From assembly GCA_031279835.1 (NCBI GenBank), contig JAITHV010000011.1, positions 1 to 44,458 on the forward strand: DNA of 44,458 nucleotides. The letters run 5' to 3'. The position numbers were made by a program, and so were the translations under genes. The notes below the pieces were generated by a model, which had not been told where the DNA came from, made no database searches, and worked only from the letters and a program-made list of their open reading frames with translations. Each line of letters starts with the position of its first letter. The stretch's first letter is position 1. Positions 11,669-23,897 of this stretch are shown here, piece after piece. The stretch is from Coriobacteriales bacterium (GTDB lineage Bacteria; Actinomycetota; Coriobacteriia; Coriobacteriales; UBA8131).

Positions 11669-15283
<3,615 letters not shown>

Positions 15284-15358: not shown

Positions 15359-16651
15359 TCAGACGTAGCGCAGGCCGTTGACGATCTGCTCGAGGAGCCA
15401 CAGTGCGCCTTCCGGCCCATACAGCTGCTTGCGCGTGATGTCAAGGTAGCTGAGAGACGGAAACCCGATCTCGATCCCGCAGGTCGCATGGCCTTCCATG
15501 CGGCAGGCAGCGATGGTGTCGCCGTCTGCCAAGACGAGCTGAGAGGGCGTGCTCACGATACGGCGCCCCAGCGCTCCTTCGCTGCATATAGCCTCAAGAT
15601 AACGTCGCAACGCGTCACCATGACCAGAATCCTCGCCCGGCAAGAGCTCTATCGCCTGCGGCACCATGCCGAGGTACCCGCTCAGCCATCGCACGAACGG
15701 GTAAGCCATCGAAGGTGTCGCGCGCAGCGAGTAGTAGGCGCCTTTGGGCAGGCCAAGGCGTGAGGAAAAGCGCGCCAGGTGCAGATAGGCGCAGGCACGG
15801 GCCTTCTCCATCTGCAGGGCTGCCGCAGACGGGTCTGCGCCCAGGGCAGCGCAGACGTGCTGGACAAACGACTCGGTCGCCTCAAAGCCGATGGGCTGCC
15901 CCTCCTCTACGCACAGCCACGGCGTCCCCCACTCGACTGCAAGCTTGCGTGCCGTCAGCAGGCCGGTCTCGGGGCACACCACGACATTGAGCTCTGCCTC
16001 GCGAGCGCGACAGACCGTCTTGAGGCCGTCCCCAGCCCCCAGTGCGCTGATCACTTCGATGCCGCAGAGCATGAGCAGCTCGCGCAGCGTCGCGTAGTTG
16101 TGCTCGTAATGCTTCTGGCTCAGGTTCAGGCCGAGAAGGTTGACCGAGCAAGGAGTCTTGGGGACCTCGGGCAGGGCAAGCGTGTCGAGCATGCTGTTGA
16201 CCGCCAGCTGGAACCCGTCGCCATAGGCGCCTGACGAGCCGGTGTTCTCGATCGCGAGGTGCAAGACGTCGTCCAAGGCGCCGGCGAGCAGTCGTTCAAG
16301 GTCGTCGCCGATCAGGGCGGCGCCTGGCGAGTTGACCACTGCGATGAGCGAGAAGCCCTTTGAGGCCACCACGCGCAGCGTCTCGTCGAGCTTCTGTGCG
16401 CTGCCGAAGACGTAGTCGTCGCCGTCTAGGTACGTTGACGGCACGCGTGGCTGTCCGAAGTAACAGCGGTCGGCGTACGAGAGTGGGTCGTAGTCTGCCG
16501 AGCGCGGGAACTGCGCGTCAGACACGGCGCTGTGAAAAAACTTGCAGCCAGTCGGCCCGTTGAGCACCACGGCTGCGTCGGCCACGCCCTCGAAGGCGAA
16601 GATCGCGCCCGTCAGGCTGTCAGGAAAGGTGCTTGCGATATAGGTCGCCAT
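15359..16651 (-). CDS. Nitrogenase component 1-type protein (NifK/BchB-like partner subunit)
   Basis: The 430-residue protein has the nitrogenase MoFe-protein fold signature. LNGPTGCKFF near the N-terminus keeps the Cys (C36) that aligns with the second P-cluster ligand of NifK. The other two usual ligands appear to be Ser: S12 in DSLTGA and S108 in NSPGAALIGDDLERL. The end, IEIGFPSLSYLD plus a Gly-Pro-Glu-Gly-Ala segment, is typical of component 1 subunits. It overlaps the upstream fused gene by about 32 bp. ATG 16651 follows GGAGG; a GTG at 16654 is also possible. Predicted to pair with the NifD half of the fusion, completing one 4Fe-4S cluster (three Cys from D, one from K). Substrate unknown. 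Confidence 0.85.
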   Translation of the reverse strand: MATYIASTFPDSLTGAIFAFEGVADAAVVLNGPTGCKFFHSAVSDAQFPRSADYDPLSYADRCYFGQPRVPSTYLDGDDYVFGSAQKLDETLRVVASKGFSLIAVVNSPGAALIGDDLERLLAGALDDVLHLAIENTGSSGAYGDGFQLAVNSMLDTLALPEVPKTPCSVNLLGLNLSQKHYEHNYATLRELLMLCGIEVISALGAGDGLKTVCRAREAELNVVVCPETGLLTARKLAVEWGTPWLCVEEGQPIGFEATESFVQHVCAALGADPSAAALQMEKARACAYLHLARFSSRLGLPKGAYYSLRATPSMAYPFVRWLSGYLGMVPQAIELLPGEDSGHGDALRRYLEAICSEGALGRRIVSTPSQLVLADGDTIAACRMEGHATCGIEIGFPSLSYLDITRKQLYGPEGALWLLEQIVNGLRYV

Positions 16652-18920
16652 CACGCCTCCATCCTTCCTCGATGTCTATGCGCATCATGTCTGCCCAACG
16701 AGACGCCCGGTAAATCCCTGAGAGAAAGCCCGCGTCGGGGCACAGCGGTATCGTGTCCATAACCACCCCGGTCAAGTCGTCAGAGAACAGGTAGTTGCTG
16801 ATAAGGACGTCGGGGTCGATGTCGCGCACCTCTGCGGTGCGCTCCAGGGCGTCGAACTCCAGTTCAGTCTGCAGCACTTGGATCTGATCGATGAAGCGGC
16901 TCACAAAGCGGTTTTCTTGTGAATATGCGAGTATGCCCACATAGGCAATTTGCATGCCGAGGTCCAAGGCGGTGGACAAGATCCAGTCGATGTTGTGGTT
17001 GAAGGTCACTATCATGAGCCTGCGGCCTTCGAGGATGGGCCGCAGCTGCTCGACCAGCGCGTCATAGCGCCTTTGAAACGTCTCCACGATGCCCGACACG
17101 GCGTCCTCGCGGCCATAGCGCGCGGCAAGCTCGGCAACCCAGGCCTGGCTCTCGGCAAAGCCGATCGGCATGGCCTTGTCGAAGAAGACCGCGCCGAACT
17201 CCTCTTGCAAGTAGTCTCGCAGGCCGCGCCCCATGTAGTCCTCGTTCGCAAGGAGGTTGAGCGGCGCCTTCATGAAGCCGCGCAGCTGCTCGTAGCTGGT
17301 CTCACAGATAAAGCGGCAGTTGACCCGAAGGCCGAGCTGGACAAGCACCTCGGTCACGAAGTCGAGATTGCCTTCGGTCGCGTTCGCGATGGTCTTCTCG
17401 GCAACGATGTTCACGAGGTCGGGCTCGGTGCTGACGCCGCGCTCGATCAGTTCCTCGGCGATGTGCTGGTAGGCGAGAAAGATGCCTTGGAGATGATCGC
17501 CCGTCAGGTTTCCGTCGGCAGCAAGGGGTATGACGCGCGTCTGGTCGTTGCCGAGGGCGCGCGTTGCCTCAATGTCTTCGCCGATGATGCCACTCGGGCA
17601 GGTGGAGACCACAAAAACGGCGGGCGGACGACACGCCACAGCCTGCTCCACGCGCGCGCGCAGCTTGTCGCTGCCTCCAAACACCATGACGGCCTCGCTC
17701 ATATCGGTACTGAAGATGGGAGGCGCCGTCAGCATCGGCAAGACCGTGCCGCGCTCAAGGAGGTGGCGGCGCGAGAGCGACGTGATCGTCTGAAAGGCGA
17801 TATGCGCGCAGCTCTGTGGCCCGTGCGCGACGCTCAGGCAGTCGGCGAGCTGTGTGGTGATGGAGAGAACCCCGTTGAAGGCACAGCCGTGCAGCGGCTC
17901 CTTGGCTGCGACGCTCTTAGAGACGAGCGGGCTGGAAGCAGGCGGCGCGGGCGCGGCGCGGAACACGTCGCCTCCGGAGGCGCCGTTGCTGTTGTCAGCG
18001 TAGGCATCGCTGCTGTCGGTGTGGGCAGGCACTTCGCAGGTTGGCGCAGGCACTTCGCAGGTTGGCGCAGGCGCGGCTCTCTTTGGTGCGGGCGTGAAGG
18101 ACGTCGGCGGCCTTCTCCCCTCCAAAACGCACTCTTCCAGCGCCCGGTCGCCAAGCGGGCGCGCATGGCACATGGCCGAGTCGTCGCACATCCTCTCGGC
18201 GAGCGCGCGCAGCGTCTCGGCCAGCGCAGAGCCTGGCGTGTGCTCAACAATGCAGCGCATGGCGCGCTCGCTGGCTGCGAAGGTCTCGTCTCGCGGCAGT
18301 GCGGCGACGATCGGCAGGCCTGCCGCTTCGGCGAATCGCTCAACCCGCTCAAGCTCGCCGGATCCTCCTCGCGCGTTGAAGACCAGGCCGCCGACGCGGC
18401 CGGCCTCTGCCTCGTAGTTCTGCATGCCGCGCAGGATGTTGTTTGCCGCGTATATGCTCATAAACTCGCCGGAGGTGACGATGTAGACGCGGTCGGCGTA
18501 CTCGTTGCGTATGGGGACTGCGAAGCCGCCACAGACCACGTCGCCGAGCACGTCGTAGAGAATGACGTCCCAGTCGCGCCCGAACACCCCTAGGCGCTCC
18601 AAGAGCTCGAAGGTGGTGAGAATGCCGCGCCCTGCACAGCCGACGCCGGGCTCTGGGCCGCCCGCCTCAACGCAATGCACGCCGAAGGCGCCCACGCGCA
18701 CGATGTCGTCGGCCGCGTGCTCTCCCGGCGGCGCGTCGCGTATATAGTCGAGCACCGTCGGAGGAGAGGCGCCGTGGAGCAGCAGGCGCGTCGAGTCGTG
18801 CTTGGGGTCGCAGCCGACTTGCAGCACGCGCTTGCCGAGCGCGCCCATCGCCGCAGCCACATTGGCCGCAATAGTGGACTTCCCTATCCCACCCTTACCA
18901 TAGAGCGCAATTTGTGACAT
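16620..18920 (-). CDS. NifH-NifD fusion: nitrogenase-like Fe protein joined to a component 1 subunit
   Basis: A 766-residue fusion. Residues 1-~265 are a complete Fe protein: P-loop GKGGIGKST (8-16), GCDPKHDSTRLLLHG, PGVGCAGRG (C95, with Arg98 at the ADP-ribosylation position) and DVLGDVVCGGFAVPIR (C130); C95 and C130 are the bridging-cluster ligands. Residues ~270-340 form a Pro/Ala/Ser-rich linker with a duplicated PAPTCEV. Residues ~341-766 are NifD-like: HGCAFNG (C346), HGPQSC (C371) and STCPSGIIGEDIEA (C441) match the three P-cluster Cys. At the FeMo-cofactor Cys position (LNLLANED, near 554-561) there is no Cys, so a nitrogenase active site is unlikely. ATG 18920 has AAGGAG 6 nt upstream. 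Family relatives include BchL/N, CfbC/D and MarH/D; the substrate here is unknown. Confidence 0.9.
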   Translation of the reverse strand: MSQIALYGKGGIGKSTIAANVAAAMGALGKRVLQVGCDPKHDSTRLLLHGASPPTVLDYIRDAPPGEHAADDIVRVGAFGVHCVEAGGPEPGVGCAGRGILTTFELLERLGVFGRDWDVILYDVLGDVVCGGFAVPIRNEYADRVYIVTSGEFMSIYAANNILRGMQNYEAEAGRVGGLVFNARGGSGELERVERFAEAAGLPIVAALPRDETFAASERAMRCIVEHTPGSALAETLRALAERMCDDSAMCHARPLGDRALEECVLEGRRPPTSFTPAPKRAAPAPTCEVPAPTCEVPAHTDSSDAYADNSNGASGGDVFRAAPAPPASSPLVSKSVAAKEPLHGCAFNGVLSITTQLADCLSVAHGPQSCAHIAFQTITSLSRRHLLERGTVLPMLTAPPIFSTDMSEAVMVFGGSDKLRARVEQAVACRPPAVFVVSTCPSGIIGEDIEATRALGNDQTRVIPLAADGNLTGDHLQGIFLAYQHIAEELIERGVSTEPDLVNIVAEKTIANATEGNLDFVTEVLVQLGLRVNCRFICETSYEQLRGFMKAPLNLLANEDYMGRGLRDYLQEEFGAVFFDKAMPIGFAESQAWVAELAARYGREDAVSGIVETFQRRYDALVEQLRPILEGRRLMIVTFNHNIDWILSTALDLGMQIAYVGILAYSQENRFVSRFIDQIQVLQTELEFDALERTAEVRDIDPDVLISNYLFSDDLTGVVMDTIPLCPDAGFLSGIYRASRWADMMRIDIEEGWRRDGDLYRKHLS
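18025..18072 (-). repeat. Tandem 21-bp duplication in the NifH-NifD linker
   Basis: A 21-bp unit occurs twice in direct tandem (18025-18045 and 18046-18066), with identity continuing to 18072. It encodes the doubled PAPTCEV heptapeptide, adding one Cys per copy. The exact DNA identity suggests a recent slippage duplication. Confidence 0.85.
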
Positions 18921-19112: not shown

Positions 19113-21221
19113 TCAGTGCTCGAGAACATAGGCGACAAAAGCGTCTGGCTCCAACGGCCTGCTGAAGTAGTATCCCTGGAAGTACCGGCACCCGATTGCC
19201 GTGAGCGCCTCGACCTGCGCGGCCGTCTCAACGCCTTCTACAATGATCTTGAGGTCGAGCTGGCCGGCAAGCTGGACGATGGATCGCACGATCTCCTGCT
19301 GGCGTACGTCGTCTGCGATGTCACTCACGAGCGAAGTGTCTATCTTCACCGAGGACACGCCGTAATCCGTGATATAGGTCAGCGACGAATAGCCCATGCC
19401 CATGTCGTCAATGGACAGGCTCACGCCCTGTGCGCGCAGGTCTTTGAACAGGTGCTGCATCGTAGTGCCCGACCGCACCGCCACGTGCTCGGTTATCTCG
19501 AGCTCGAGCTCGCCCTCGGCGATCCCGTGCTTGTTAAGCAGGCTGCCGATGAAGGCCGGGAACTCAGGGTCTTGAGCCAGGTGGCGCGGGTTGAGGTTCA
19601 CCGACAACACCGGCGGCGCAATGCCGAGCGCCTTCCAGCGCGCAAGCTCGGCGATGCCGACGCCTGCCACCCAACGCCCGAGCTCGACCGAGAGGCCTGC
19701 CTCATCGGTCATTTCGACAAGCACGACGGGCGACACGGCGCCGTGCTCAGGGTGCGTCCAACGCAAAAGGGCCTCGGCGCCGACGACGCGCCCCGCCGCG
19801 TCGGTCTTTGGCTGATAGACGAGGCGGAAGGGCAGTTGTCCCGAGTCGAAGTACTCATGGAGCTCGACGGCAAACTCGCGGGCGGTGTCGCCCAGCGCGT
19901 CGCGCCGCATGAGCAGCGAGGACTGCTCGTTTTCTGCCGCGTCGAGCGCTACAGCCTTGAACCGGTCGAAGCGCGCGCGGTCGATCGCCTGGTTGCGACG
20001 CTTGACCCAGCGCACGAAGGGCAGGTAGACAAGCACCGACACCGCGAGACACACGCCTTGCAGCAGCGCGCCCGCCACTGAGCCGGTTGCCAGGTAGCCG
20101 GATGCGACAACCGGTGTCGTCCAGCCTGGGCTTGCCGTTATCGGCGGCACGATCCCTGAGCCGAAGGCAACAAGGCACAGCGCGGCGTTGAGGAGCGGCA
20201 CGCCGACGAAGGGCACGAGAACAAACGGGTTGAAGACGAGTGGCAGCCCGTAAAGCAAGGTCTCGTTGACGTTGAGCAGCGAGGGGAACACCGAGGCCTT
20301 GGCAATGCGCCGCCCATGCTGGCGCGAGCCGACGATGAGCAGCGCGGCCAACAGCCCGAGCGTGGCGCCACAACCGCCCAGGTTGATGAAGCTGAGGTAG
20401 AACTCCTTGCTGGCGAACAGCGTCTCGCCCGGCAGCGCCCCCGCGCCGGCCGCAAGCGACGGGAAGGTCGATATCACCGTGTCGGTGCCGTGCACGCCAA
20501 AGAACCACAAAAGCTGCGACAAGAACACGGTGCCAAGCACCGAGAGCGGGTTGTCTGAGATGAGAAACTCTTGGGCAAATGCCCCGAACGCCTTGCTCGC
20601 CGCGTCGATCTCAAAGACCTCGACGTACAGCACCCGCGCGACGGCAAAGGCAGCGAGGGTCGCCGCGAGGGGAAATATGGAAGCGAAAGCCGAGCGCACC
20701 TGAAGGTTGGCGAAGCGCCATGCCATGCGATTGGTCACCAGGCGCCGCCACAGGCGAGCGCTCGCAAAAAACAGGGAGGTTGCGGCCAACGCGGTAGCCA
20801 GCGCATAGAAGACGCCCGTCCTGCCGGGATGCGGAAAGTCAAGGACGGTGTCGCCGGGAGCGTCCCACACGAAGGCCGCGACATAGCAGGCAAATGCCGT
20901 GAACATCACGACGAAGCGGTTTGTCTCCCCCTTCTTGACAAGCTGGTCCTCACCAGCGAGCTCAAGGCTGACCGAAAGCAGCGCGGCAAGCCCCACGACC
21001 TCAAGCGTAGCGAACTTGACGGCAGCAGTAGCCGACATCCAGTAGCCGTTGGTCATGGCGTTGAGGAAGTCATGGAACGGCGGCACCGGCAGGCCGGCGA
21101 GCGCGGTCGCGAAGGCACCGATAAGGACCACGGGTATGATGTTGACAAGCCCGTTGCTGATCGAGCGGACGTAGCGGTTGTCCGCAAAAGCTGATGCGAC
21201 TGTCTCAGGCACCCTGGGCAT
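19113..21221 (-). CDS. PTS EIIC (cellobiose-type) permease fused to an EAL c-di-GMP phosphodiesterase
   Basis: A 702-residue fusion. Residues ~1-430 are a lactose/cellobiose-family EIIC domain with about ten membrane segments and the signature NVNETLLYGLPLVFNPFVLV, plus FYLSFINLGGCGATLGLL. Residues ~460-700 are an EAL domain with its catalytic set intact: AEALLRW (EAL), NLNPRHLA (Asn), LEITEH (Glu), IDDMGMGYSSL (Asp-Asp), KIDTSLV (Lys), IVEGVE (Glu) and YFQGYYFSRPL. Predicted to hydrolyse c-di-GMP, perhaps in response to a sugar bound by the EIIC half; no EIIA or EIIB gene is in the window, so transport is doubtful. ATG 21221 is preceded at 8 nt by TATTAT, so it may be leaderless; an open frame extends to 21290. 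Confidence 0.9.
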   Translation of the reverse strand: MPRVPETVASAFADNRYVRSISNGLVNIIPVVLIGAFATALAGLPVPPFHDFLNAMTNGYWMSATAAVKFATLEVVGLAALLSVSLELAGEDQLVKKGETNRFVVMFTAFACYVAAFVWDAPGDTVLDFPHPGRTGVFYALATALAATSLFFASARLWRRLVTNRMAWRFANLQVRSAFASIFPLAATLAAFAVARVLYVEVFEIDAASKAFGAFAQEFLISDNPLSVLGTVFLSQLLWFFGVHGTDTVISTFPSLAAGAGALPGETLFASKEFYLSFINLGGCGATLGLLAALLIVGSRQHGRRIAKASVFPSLLNVNETLLYGLPLVFNPFVLVPFVGVPLLNAALCLVAFGSGIVPPITASPGWTTPVVASGYLATGSVAGALLQGVCLAVSVLVYLPFVRWVKRRNQAIDRARFDRFKAVALDAAENEQSSLLMRRDALGDTAREFAVELHEYFDSGQLPFRLVYQPKTDAAGRVVGAEALLRWTHPEHGAVSPVVLVEMTDEAGLSVELGRWVAGVGIAELARWKALGIAPPVLSVNLNPRHLAQDPEFPAFIGSLLNKHGIAEGELELEITEHVAVRSGTTMQHLFKDLRAQGVSLSIDDMGMGYSSLTYITDYGVSSVKIDTSLVSDIADDVRQQEIVRSIVQLAGQLDLKIIVEGVETAAQVEALTAIGCRYFQGYYFSRPLEPDAFVAYVLEH

Positions 21222-21229
21222 GATGCAAC

Positions 21230-21235
21230 ATAATA
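21230..21235 (-). promoter_or_regulatory. Possible -10 (TATTAT) directly before the EIIC-EAL start
   Basis: TATTAT (21235-21230, minus strand) lies 8 nt before ATG 21221, and there is no Shine-Dalgarno sequence between. This resembles the leaderless arrangement at the MobA-like gene, but the -35 and TGn are missing. Confidence 0.35.
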
Positions 21236-21325
21236 GCGCATGAAAAGGTCGCGGGCGGGCGCGGCACTGACAGGGTTGACAGGTGGCCAACGTCAGAATG
21301 AACGAACCATCATTAAGCGGATCTA

Positions 21326-21334: not shown

Positions 21335-21403
21335 GAAAAAAGCACGGCCTGGGGGCAGCCCCGCATGACGCGGCGGCTCACACACGAAAGGGGCACACTG
21401 CCT

Positions 21404-22498
21404 ATGGACAGCTTGCGACACACCGTGATGATGGTGGACGACAATGTGACCAACCTGACGCTTGGCAAAAACCTGCTCAAGGAAGTCTACGACGTGTACA
21501 CGGTCCCCTCGGCAAAAAAAATGCTCGACCTTCTCGACAAGCTTCAGCCTGACCTCATTTTGCTCGACATCGAGATGCCCGAGATGAACGGGTACGAGGC
21601 CATCAAAAAGCTCAAGTCAGACCCGCGCTTCGCAGACATCCCGGTCGTCTTTTTGACCGCGCGCGCAGACGAGGGCTCCGAGATGGAGGGCCTGAGCCTT
21701 GGCGCCGTCGACTACATCTACAAGCCGTTCTCAGGGCCCCTGCTGATTCAGCGCATCAGAAACCATCTGATCACCGTCGAGCAGCGCAGGGACCTCGAGC
21801 GCTACAACCACGACCTCGAGAGCCTGGTCGAGCAGAAGGCAGCGCAGGTCAACGAGCTCAAGAACACCGTGATCGCCTCCATCGCGGAGCTGGTCGAAAG
21901 CCGCGACAACGTGACGGGAAACCACATCATGCGCACCCAGGCCTACCTGAAGCTATTGCTCGACGAGCTCACCGGGCAAGGAATCTACACAGACCTGACA
22001 CGCGAGTGGAACTTTGACTTCCTGTTCACGGCGGCCCAGCTGCATGACGTAGGAAAAATAGCGATAAGCGACACCATCCTCAACAAGCCGGACCGACTCA
22101 CGGCTGAGGAGTTCGAGATAATGAAGACGCATGCGCCGCTCGGTGTCAAGATAATCAACACCATTGAGGGCAAGACCAAGGAGCATGCCTTTCTCCACCA
22201 TGCCAAGACCATTGCAGGCACCCATCATGAGAAGTGGGACGGCACGGGCTATCCGAGCGGCCTGAAAGGCAAGAACATACCGCTCGAAGGGCGGCTCATG
22301 GCCATCGCCGACGTCTACGACGCGCTCATCTCGGTGCGCCCCTACAAGAAGGCGCTTCCCATCCCCGAGGCAGAGCACATCATCGTGGAAGGCGCCGGCA
22401 CCCACTTTGACCCGGTGCTCGTTGGCGTGTTCCAGACCATCGCCGACCGCTTTGCGAACATCGCCCAAGCGCATCGAGACAGCCCGGCCTGCAGCTGA
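21404..22498 (+). CDS. Response regulator with HD-GYP c-di-GMP phosphodiesterase domain (copy 1)
   Basis: A 364-residue two-domain protein. The REC domain (about 1-125) has the acidic pair in MMVDDN, the phospho-Asp in LILLDIEMPEMNGYEA, the Thr in FLTAR and the Lys in YIYKPFSG. The HD-GYP domain (about 165-355) has LHDVGKIAISDTILNKP (HD), HAKTIAGTHHEKWDGTGYP (HH and GYP variant) and ADVYDALISVRPYK. Such proteins cleave c-di-GMP to GMP when the receiver is phosphorylated. ATG 21404 has AAAGGGG 10 nt upstream; the frame stays open to 21365. It is followed by a close paralog, and no histidine kinase gene is in the window. Confidence 0.92.
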   Translation: MDSLRHTVMMVDDNVTNLTLGKNLLKEVYDVYTVPSAKKMLDLLDKLQPDLILLDIEMPEMNGYEAIKKLKSDPRFADIPVVFLTARADEGSEMEGLSLGAVDYIYKPFSGPLLIQRIRNHLITVEQRRDLERYNHDLESLVEQKAAQVNELKNTVIASIAELVESRDNVTGNHIMRTQAYLKLLLDELTGQGIYTDLTREWNFDFLFTAAQLHDVGKIAISDTILNKPDRLTAEEFEIMKTHAPLGVKIINTIEGKTKEHAFLHHAKTIAGTHHEKWDGTGYPSGLKGKNIPLEGRLMAIADVYDALISVRPYKKALPIPEAEHIIVEGAGTHFDPVLVGVFQTIADRFANIAQAHRDSPACS

Positions 22499-22623: not shown

Positions 22624-22763
22624 GTATGTGGTCGTTAATCGTGCGGCAGAGGGGGCAGTTTGGGGACTGCGTCTGCTAGGATGTGCGACCTGTTCCGCAG
22701 CTATCAGTGCTTCAGCGCCCGGGGGCCAGCTTCTCGTCTCAGGGTCGAAAGGGGTTGTTAACC

Positions 22764-23897
22764 ATGAGTGACATCCGCAACAAGGTCTTGTTGGTAGACG
22801 ACAATTTGACCAACCTCTCCATGGGAAAGAACATACTCAAAAACATCTACGAAGTCTACACGGTGTCGTCTGCGCAGCGCATGTTCTCGCTCCTCGAGAA
22901 GATACAGCCGGACCTTATCCTCCTCGACATCGAGATGCCCGAGATGAACGGGTACGAGGCCATAAAGAAGCTCAAGTCCGACTCGCACTTCGCCGACATT
23001 CCCGTCATTTTTGTGACGGCGCGCTCAGACGAAGGCTCGGAGATGGAGGGGCTGAGCCTCGGCGCCATCGACTACATTTACAAGCCGTTTTCGGGCGCAC
23101 TGATCATACAGCGCATCAAGAACCACCTCATCACCGTCGAGCAGCGAAAGACGCTCGAGCGCTACAACCACAACCTCGAGAGCGCGGTGCGGGAGAAGAG
23201 CGAACAGGTCCACGAGCTCAAGAACACCGTCATCACCTCCATCGCAGAGATGGTCGAGAGCCGCGACAACGTGACGGGAAACCACATCATGCGCACCCAG
23301 GCCTACCTGAAGCTATTGCTCGACGAGCTCGTTGAACAGGGCATTTACTCCGACGTGACGAGAGGCTGGAACTTCGACTTCCTGTTCACAGCGGCCCAGC
23401 TGCACGACGTGGGAAAGATATCGATAAGCGACACCATCCTCAACAAGCCGGATCGCCTCACGGCTGAGGAGTTCGAGATAATGAAGACGCACGCGTTGCT
23501 CGGCGTCAAGATAATCAACTCCATTGAGGGCAACACGCGCGAGCACGAGTTCCTGCGCCATGCGAAGACTATTGCAGGCACCCATCATGAGAAGTGGGAC
23601 GGCACAGGCTACCCGTACGGCCTCAAGGGCAGGGAGATACCGCTCGAGGGGCGTCTCATGGCAATCGCCGACGTCTACGACGCGCTCATCTCGGTGCGCC
23701 CCTACAAAGAGGCCCTGCCCATCCCCGAGGCCGAGCGCATCATAGTCGAGGGCGCCGGCTCCCACTTTGACCCGGTTCTCGTCGGCGTGTTCCAGACGGT
23801 TGCGAGTCGTTTTGCGCACATTGCCCAAAACTACCGCGACAGCTCCCCAGAAGGCGAGACGCCGCACACGCCCCTGGAGCGCGCGCGCGTGGCATAG
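22764..23897 (+). CDS. Response regulator with HD-GYP domain (copy 2, paralog of the preceding gene)
   Basis: A 377-residue protein with the same REC plus HD-GYP layout as copy 1 and very similar throughout: phospho-Asp in LLDIEMPEMNGYEA, the HD pair in LHDVGKISISD, HHEKWDGTGYPYG and ADVYDALISVRPYK. Residues diverge mainly in the linker (about 130-160) and at the C-terminus, where this copy adds a short tail. ATG 22764 (MSDIRNKVLLVDDN) has AAAGGGG about 11 nt upstream. Predicted c-di-GMP phosphodiesterase under two-component control. Tandem duplication with later sequence exchange is suggested by a 72-bp identical block shared with copy 1. Confidence 0.92.
   Translation: MSDIRNKVLLVDDNLTNLSMGKNILKNIYEVYTVSSAQRMFSLLEKIQPDLILLDIEMPEMNGYEAIKKLKSDSHFADIPVIFVTARSDEGSEMEGLSLGAIDYIYKPFSGALIIQRIKNHLITVEQRKTLERYNHNLESAVREKSEQVHELKNTVITSIAEMVESRDNVTGNHIMRTQAYLKLLLDELVEQGIYSDVTRGWNFDFLFTAAQLHDVGKISISDTILNKPDRLTAEEFEIMKTHALLGVKIINSIEGNTREHEFLRHAKTIAGTHHEKWDGTGYPYGLKGREIPLEGRLMAIADVYDALISVRPYKEALPIPEAERIIVEGAGSHFDPVLVGVFQTVASRFAHIAQNYRDSSPEGETPHTPLERARVA

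Follow-up and report, generated by a model that had tools for sequence, protein, structure and literature searches.

The stretch of DNA analysed here (the window; 44,458 nucleotides (nt), positions 1 to 44,458 of contig JAITHV010000011.1, assembly GCA_031279835.1, from a Coriobacteriales bacterium) carries a gene in which a nitrogenase-type Fe protein (H) and a component-1 subunit (D) are joined in one chain, followed by a gene for a second component-1 subunit (K). Comparison of this two-gene system, HD-K, with its homologues in other genomes leads us to infer, with a probability of about 0.5, that it reduces corrinoids at the expense of ATP, with its Fe protein on a tether, and that it most likely supplies Co(I) for adenosylation. 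A corrinoid substrate appears probable, and Co(II) to Co(I) as the chemistry is advanced more tentatively. HD-K would then stand an even chance of being the first member of the nitrogenase superfamily to act on corrinoids, encoded by two genes, driven by ATP and receiving its electrons through re-docking of a covalently tethered Fe protein within one complex.

A conserved fusion of Fe protein and component 1

The genes and the domains and residues discussed below are located in the window as follows.

16620..18920, minus strand: coding sequence of the H-D fusion, 766 amino acids (P0001); single open reading frame with a stop-free translation
18123..18920, minus strand: Fe-protein (NifH-like) domain, residues 1-266, with P-loop GKGGIGKS (PF00142, AlphaFold2, Foldseek)
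18636-18638 and 18531-18533, minus strand: codons of the Fe-protein [4Fe-4S] ligands C95 and C130, invariant in 57/57
17922..18122, minus strand: linker, residues 267-333, Ala/Pro-rich and predicted to be disordered (AlphaFold2 confidence)
16623..17921, minus strand: component-1 alpha-type (NifD/E-like) domain, residues 334-766 (profiles, alignment, AlphaFold2)
17883-17885, 17808-17810 and 17598-17600, minus strand: D-domain cluster cysteines C346, C371 and C441
15359..16651, minus strand: K-type subunit, 430 amino acids (P0002) (Oxidored_nitro profile, fold model)
16544-16546, minus strand: C36, the single invariant cysteine of K, in NGPTGC
16620..16651, minus strand: 32 nt shared by the fusion gene and the K gene (overlap)

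The original prediction, made from the sequence of the window, had read this region as a complete Fe protein and a component-1 subunit in one 766-residue chain, with an overlapping NifK-type second gene. Translation and profile searches bear this out: Fer4_NifH covers residues 3-265 of the fusion (E 3e-91), Oxidored_nitro covers residues 346-725 (E 8e-65), and the product of the K gene also matches Oxidored_nitro (E 4e-46). The five cysteines C95, C130, C346, C371 and C441 lie where they had been placed and are invariant among the 57 fusion proteins aligned. The gene overlap, which is 32 or 35 nt in 30 of the 46 loci measured, suggests translational coupling.

A database search for the same domain order, in which 84,980 species genomes were scanned with the D-domain alignment, returned 58 loci. 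H and D form one open reading frame in all 57 loci of other genomes where both halves are visible (about 725-860 residues where complete), and no stop or frameshift separates them in the window. These loci, together with three further Coriobacteriales contigs that are fused as well, exclude chance, frameshift or misassembly as the origin of the fusion. In one Treponema copy (L088:3-1306) the D region is divided between two frames, which may reflect decay of the copy or an error in sequencing. The K gene follows the fusion gene in the relatives wherever contig and open reading frame call allow, and the linker measures 30-109 residues across the family (median 42; 69 in the window). At least 57 species of bacteria and archaea carry the fusion, the named hosts belonging to seven phyla: Actinomycetota, Spirochaetota, Bacillota, Thermodesulfobacteriota, Chloroflexota, Planctomycetota and Methanosarcinales. 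The distribution is patchy, with a K gene at E < 1e-30 in 13 of 399 Coriobacteriales genomes.

Cluster ligands, predicted structure and phylogeny

The K proteins have C36 as their only invariant cysteine (52/52), whereas nitrogenase K has three cluster cysteines; the other P-cluster positions hold D11/S12 and S/T/A108. At the position of NifD Cys275, a ligand of the iron-molybdenum cofactor (FeMoco), the fusion family has Y, H, N, W, F or K, and cysteine is absent. Because of this 3+1 cysteine pattern and the missing FeMoco ligand, D (three cysteines) and K (one) are predicted to hold a single [4Fe-4S] cluster between them, similar to that of chlorophyllide reductase and not a P-cluster, in an enzyme that would lack a FeMoco-type cofactor and nitrogenase chemistry. 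Nitrogen fixation was rejected on these ligands.

Single-chain AlphaFold2 models show confident H and D domains, with residues 274-329 between them at a predicted local distance difference test score below 50, and a K subunit that is confident except for residues 1-6 and 41-71. The best folds for K are BchB, the closest, and MarK. Among the first 50 Foldseek matches listed for the whole fusion only Fe proteins (nitrogenase) appear, and the identity of the D domain therefore rests on sequence profiles.

Quick trees were built with a small reference set, labelled by NCBIfam (several) or from their operon context and sequence. The fused D sequences group in a single clade, as do the fused K sequences (approximate likelihood ratio support, SH-aLRT, 100 in both cases), apart from the sampled Nif, Anf, NifEN, Bch, CfbD and Group-IV proteins, and fused H forms one clade (99) adjoining two unfused H of other Coriobacteriales. 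All three subunits thus fall outside the characterised clades among the references sampled, in line with the original prediction; the position relative to Mar and Isr is judged through Group-IV proxies and ligand residues only, the trees being without Rhodospirillum rubrum Mar and Rhodobacter capsulatus Isr. On sequence grounds the family can be classed as nitrogenase-like, and as Group IV in the broad sense of an Fe protein with component-1 homologues outside the Nif/Anf/Vnf and Bch clades.

Unfused nitrogenase-like H-D-K sets were also observed. The genome of the window has one on another contig (G000:C99; L033:4741-8966, plus strand), Group-IV and Mar/Isr-like, whose downstream gene reads like a radical SAM protein (CNIACRFCE), and a further fusion-bearing genome (G025) likewise has a separate set (L129:5720-9142). 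In other Coriobacteriales, unfused sets (L128:2702-9012, L130:163-9642 and L131) lie near FecCD-like permeases as well as genes resembling those of a binding protein and of Crp; the H of L128 and L131 are sister to fused H, and these sets possibly encode another metal-chelate or tetrapyrrole reductase.

Linkage to corrinoid uptake and salvage

The original prediction left the substrate open. It is indeed not evident from the window, but in other genomes the loci are linked to genes for taking up and salvaging corrinoids and to cobalamin riboswitches. When the neighbours of the fusion loci were clustered and scanned for families, the commonest proved to be of corrinoid type (uptake, adenosylation, salvage). 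The top Pfam families among 125 co-directional neighbours are Peripla_BP_2 (6), FecCD (5), DUF71, ABC_tran, DUF4430, Cob_adeno_trans and AP_endonuc_2 (4 each) and CobU (3), with CbiK at 2; this count leaves out the closest relatives of the window, which lack corrinoid linkage, and several of its numbers stem from near-identical Treponema loci and are not independent.

In termite-gut Treponema the gene order is adenosyltransferase (PF01923), substrate-binding protein (PF01497), FecCD, ATPase, HD, K, CobU, a xylose-isomerase-like TIM barrel, CobT and CobS, where the TIM barrel may be CbiR-like, judging from fold family and context. Formimonas has BtuR upstream, with cobalamin riboswitches both 5' of BtuR and directly 5' of HD; at L044, BtuR and a riboswitch stand beside HD. 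Methanococcoides loci contain either the substrate-binding protein, FecCD and ATPase genes or CbiZ, and CbiZ adjoins HD at L084. On a Coriobacteriales contig (L146) the substrate-binding protein, FecCD and ATPase genes lie near HD-K, beyond K on the same strand, with the same order as in the window. DUF71 is found near the fusion in Marinisporobacter and in a planctomycete; this family has been tied to B12 salvage (PMC3541065). As a side observation, large secreted proteins are encoded downstream of K, behind a cobalamin riboswitch, at L043, L050 and L068 (with DUF4430, shown for L050), and are candidates for surface corrinoid binding.

Cobalamin riboswitches (RF00174) are strongly enriched, with 20 matches in the 44 loci whose genomes were also scanned versus 1.24 expected from the densities of the same genomes. 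The genome scan had stricter filters and the expectation is therefore underestimated, but the excess remains large after a threefold correction. This enrichment reflects proximity to B12-regulated genes, and HD-K itself is a likely target only through the riboswitches directly 5' of the fusion gene at L044, L061 and L074 (direct leaders in two phyla); at L090, L057, L075, L038 and L070 the riboswitch lies upstream of genes leading into the fusion. A BtuR or PduO-type adenosyltransferase is present in 46 of the 51 genomes, which does not discriminate, as many B12 users have one.

Several observations weigh against a corrinoid function. Neither corrinoid neighbours nor a riboswitch were found at the locus of the window and the other loci of its family, the window and the Coriobacteriales fusion loci having no cobalamin riboswitch, and more than half of all loci are without a recognised corrinoid neighbour. 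FecCD-type ATP-binding cassette (ABC) transporters also carry haem and siderophores, and genome linkage does not identify chemistry. The source of the window, a 2.0-Mb draft genome of 134 contigs that is about 91% complete, has eight cobalamin riboswitches, and neither BtuR/PduO adenosyltransferases nor CbiD were found in it; for this reason the function would extend to the copy in the window by homology only.

Proposed mechanism and alternative functions

In the proposed mechanism the N-terminal Fe-protein domain would hydrolyse ATP and pair with a second copy via a shared [4Fe-4S] cluster (C95, C130), and the pair would hand single low-potential electrons to the predicted D/K cluster (three cysteines of D, one of K), which would reduce a bound tetrapyrrole directly, as DPOR (dark-operative protochlorophyllide oxidoreductase) and COR (chlorophyllide oxidoreductase) do. 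The substrate would most likely be a corrinoid under salvage and the likeliest step Co(II) to Co(I), enabling the adenosyltransferase. Adenosyltransferases need Co(I), and the Treponema operon has genes for the salvage steps other than the reduction of cobalt to Co(I), which by elimination suggests HD-K as the reductase. The flexible linker would hold the Fe protein close to component 1. With H and D in a 1:1 ratio, a D2K2 tetramer can have no more than one Fe-protein dimer, so that docking may be half-site or alternating; nitrogenase can bind two Fe-protein dimers.

The same chemistry and riboswitch control would be expected if HD-K, as an alternative to RamA/RACE, acted not on free corrinoids but on corrinoid proteins (methyltransferases, methionine synthase, reductive dehalogenases), activating them by reduction of their Co(II). 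Methylotrophic or demethylating anaerobes are found among the hosts (Methanococcoides, Methanosarcina, Formimonas), and at L088 a cobalamin riboswitch precedes a gene that reads like one for a pterin-binding methyltransferase. The recurring neighbours are however uptake and salvage genes, not methyltransferases, and we consider this function unlikely.

Equally unlikely in our view is the reduction of a C=C bond of a corrin or precorrin macrocycle (compare DPOR, COR and CfbCD), for example in place of CbiJ or in the making of an unknown corrinoid. The characterised relatives with 4Fe-4S clusters only do reduce tetrapyrrole rings, the ligand pattern matches that of COR, and a few loci have chelatase-type neighbours (CbiK and ChlI-like). 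The neighbours are nevertheless mostly late salvage genes, and CbiD, which marks the anaerobic de novo pathway, is present in only 36 of 51 genomes. It is absent from the single-contig genome of E. minutum, which keeps HD-K together with both adenosyltransferase types and six cobalamin riboswitches. The distribution of CbiD speaks for salvage over de novo synthesis and weakens the replacement of CbiJ.

Somewhat less probable still is that the substrate of HD-K is some other import of FecCD-type transporters, a metal chelate or small molecule such as haem or a siderophore, the corrinoid linkage being lineage-specific. The many loci without corrinoid genes, that of the window included, would fit, as would the unfused sister systems near FecCD-like permeases, but the riboswitches are cobalamin-specific, and several phyla, archaea among them, show the linkage. 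Finally, a nitrogenase or a Mar/Isr-like reductase of sulfur compounds with a large Fe-S cofactor was already disfavoured and is very improbable: MarK is the best sequence match of K in the PDB and D aligns with MarD and NifD, yet the FeMoco cysteine ligand is absent, only four of six P-cluster cysteines are present, the clades are separate, and no radical SAM, nifE/N or nifB partner was recognised in the window.

Genes around the fusion in the window

No nif, bch or cfb genes were found among the annotated neighbours in the window, as the original prediction had stated. Other genes observed close to the system are the following.

11693-15283, plus strand: pyruvate:ferredoxin oxidoreductase (PFOR), convergent with K; a possible low-potential electron source
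19113-21290, minus strand: phosphotransferase system (PTS) EIIC and cyclic di-GMP EAL domains in a single protein of 725 residues, immediately upstream of the fusion gene
21365-22498 and 22683-23897, plus strand: adjacent and very similar pair reading like response regulators with HD-GYP-type output, apparently a tandem duplication

A function deduced from these neighbours (mre genes, PFOR, EAL-PTS, alaS) was dropped, as PFOR is convergent and the neighbouring genes vary between the fusion loci of the family of the window. Related genomes showed no recognisable PFOR next to their fusion loci.

Earlier reports and significance

The substrates of characterised enzymes in the nitrogenase family are nitrogen, sulfur compounds and the precursors of chlorophyll and F430. 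The original prediction knew of no characterised fusion of this kind. The fusion is, however, widespread and had already been mentioned: Dos Santos et al. 2012 noted fused nifH-nifE-like and NifN-like genes in one sentence and filtered them out, with data not shown and with neither phylogeny nor function (PMC3464626). In the open-access literature we found no function for the fused genes, no link of a nitrogenase-like system to B12 salvage, and no description of a nitrogenase-family enzyme handling vitamin B12. The architecture is thus not new. Added here are its conservation and distribution, its ligand pattern, phylogeny and linker, and the link to corrinoids, which appears to be new. Should that link hold, HD-K is a candidate to fill the corrinoid-reduction step, rarely assigned so far, of B12 salvage in gut and sediment anaerobes. 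The tether also offers a natural construct for asking whether the nitrogenase cycle needs dissociation of the Fe protein, and its 1:1 stoichiometry would make HD-K a natural half-site system.

Comparison with known systems

Compared to nitrogenase (Nif/Anf/VnfHDK), which has six P-cluster cysteines, three each in D and K, the fusion family has only four of six, and the NCBIfam nitrogenase equivalogs stay below cut-off (TIGR01287, 312.6 versus 394 bits; TIGR01282, 86 versus 654).

The closest parallel in ligands is COR (BchXYZ), whose interface ligands are three cysteines from Y and one from Z; the single cysteine of K lies at the same (A/G)P-x-GC motif as in BchZ. COR differs in its separate clades and bch genes and in having an H that is not fused to D, and the BchX model scores 211 against a cut-off of 331 bits. 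DPOR (BchLNB) shares the closest K fold (BchB) and the predicted 4Fe-4S-only electron acceptor. Its cluster ligands are three cysteines and an aspartate, BchB having Asp in HAPQGD where K has Cys36, and it is unfused and belongs to a separate clade.

MarHDK and IsrHDK (Group IV) likewise consist of nitrogenase-like H, D and K. Mar has six P-cluster cysteines, Cys270/His429 for an Fe8S9C cluster, and MarB (PMC12552129), whereas the fusion family has the 3+1 pattern, lacks the cysteine ligand of Fe8S9C and has no radical SAM gene (marB/isrB) among the annotated neighbours in the window. CfbCD of F430 biosynthesis is, like the enzyme proposed here, a 4Fe-4S nitrogenase-like enzyme acting on a metallo-tetrapyrrole, and CfbC is the best-scoring model for fused H (318.6 versus a cut-off of 402 bits; TIGR03282 / NF033200 tested), but Cfb is unfused and without a K subunit.

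With the corrinoid reductases CobR, PduS and RamA/RACE, which have flavin or non-nitrogenase folds, HD-K would share the delivery of electrons to Co(II) corrinoids; CobR is flavin-dependent (PMC7242693), and the nitrogenase-type fold sets HD-K apart from all of them.

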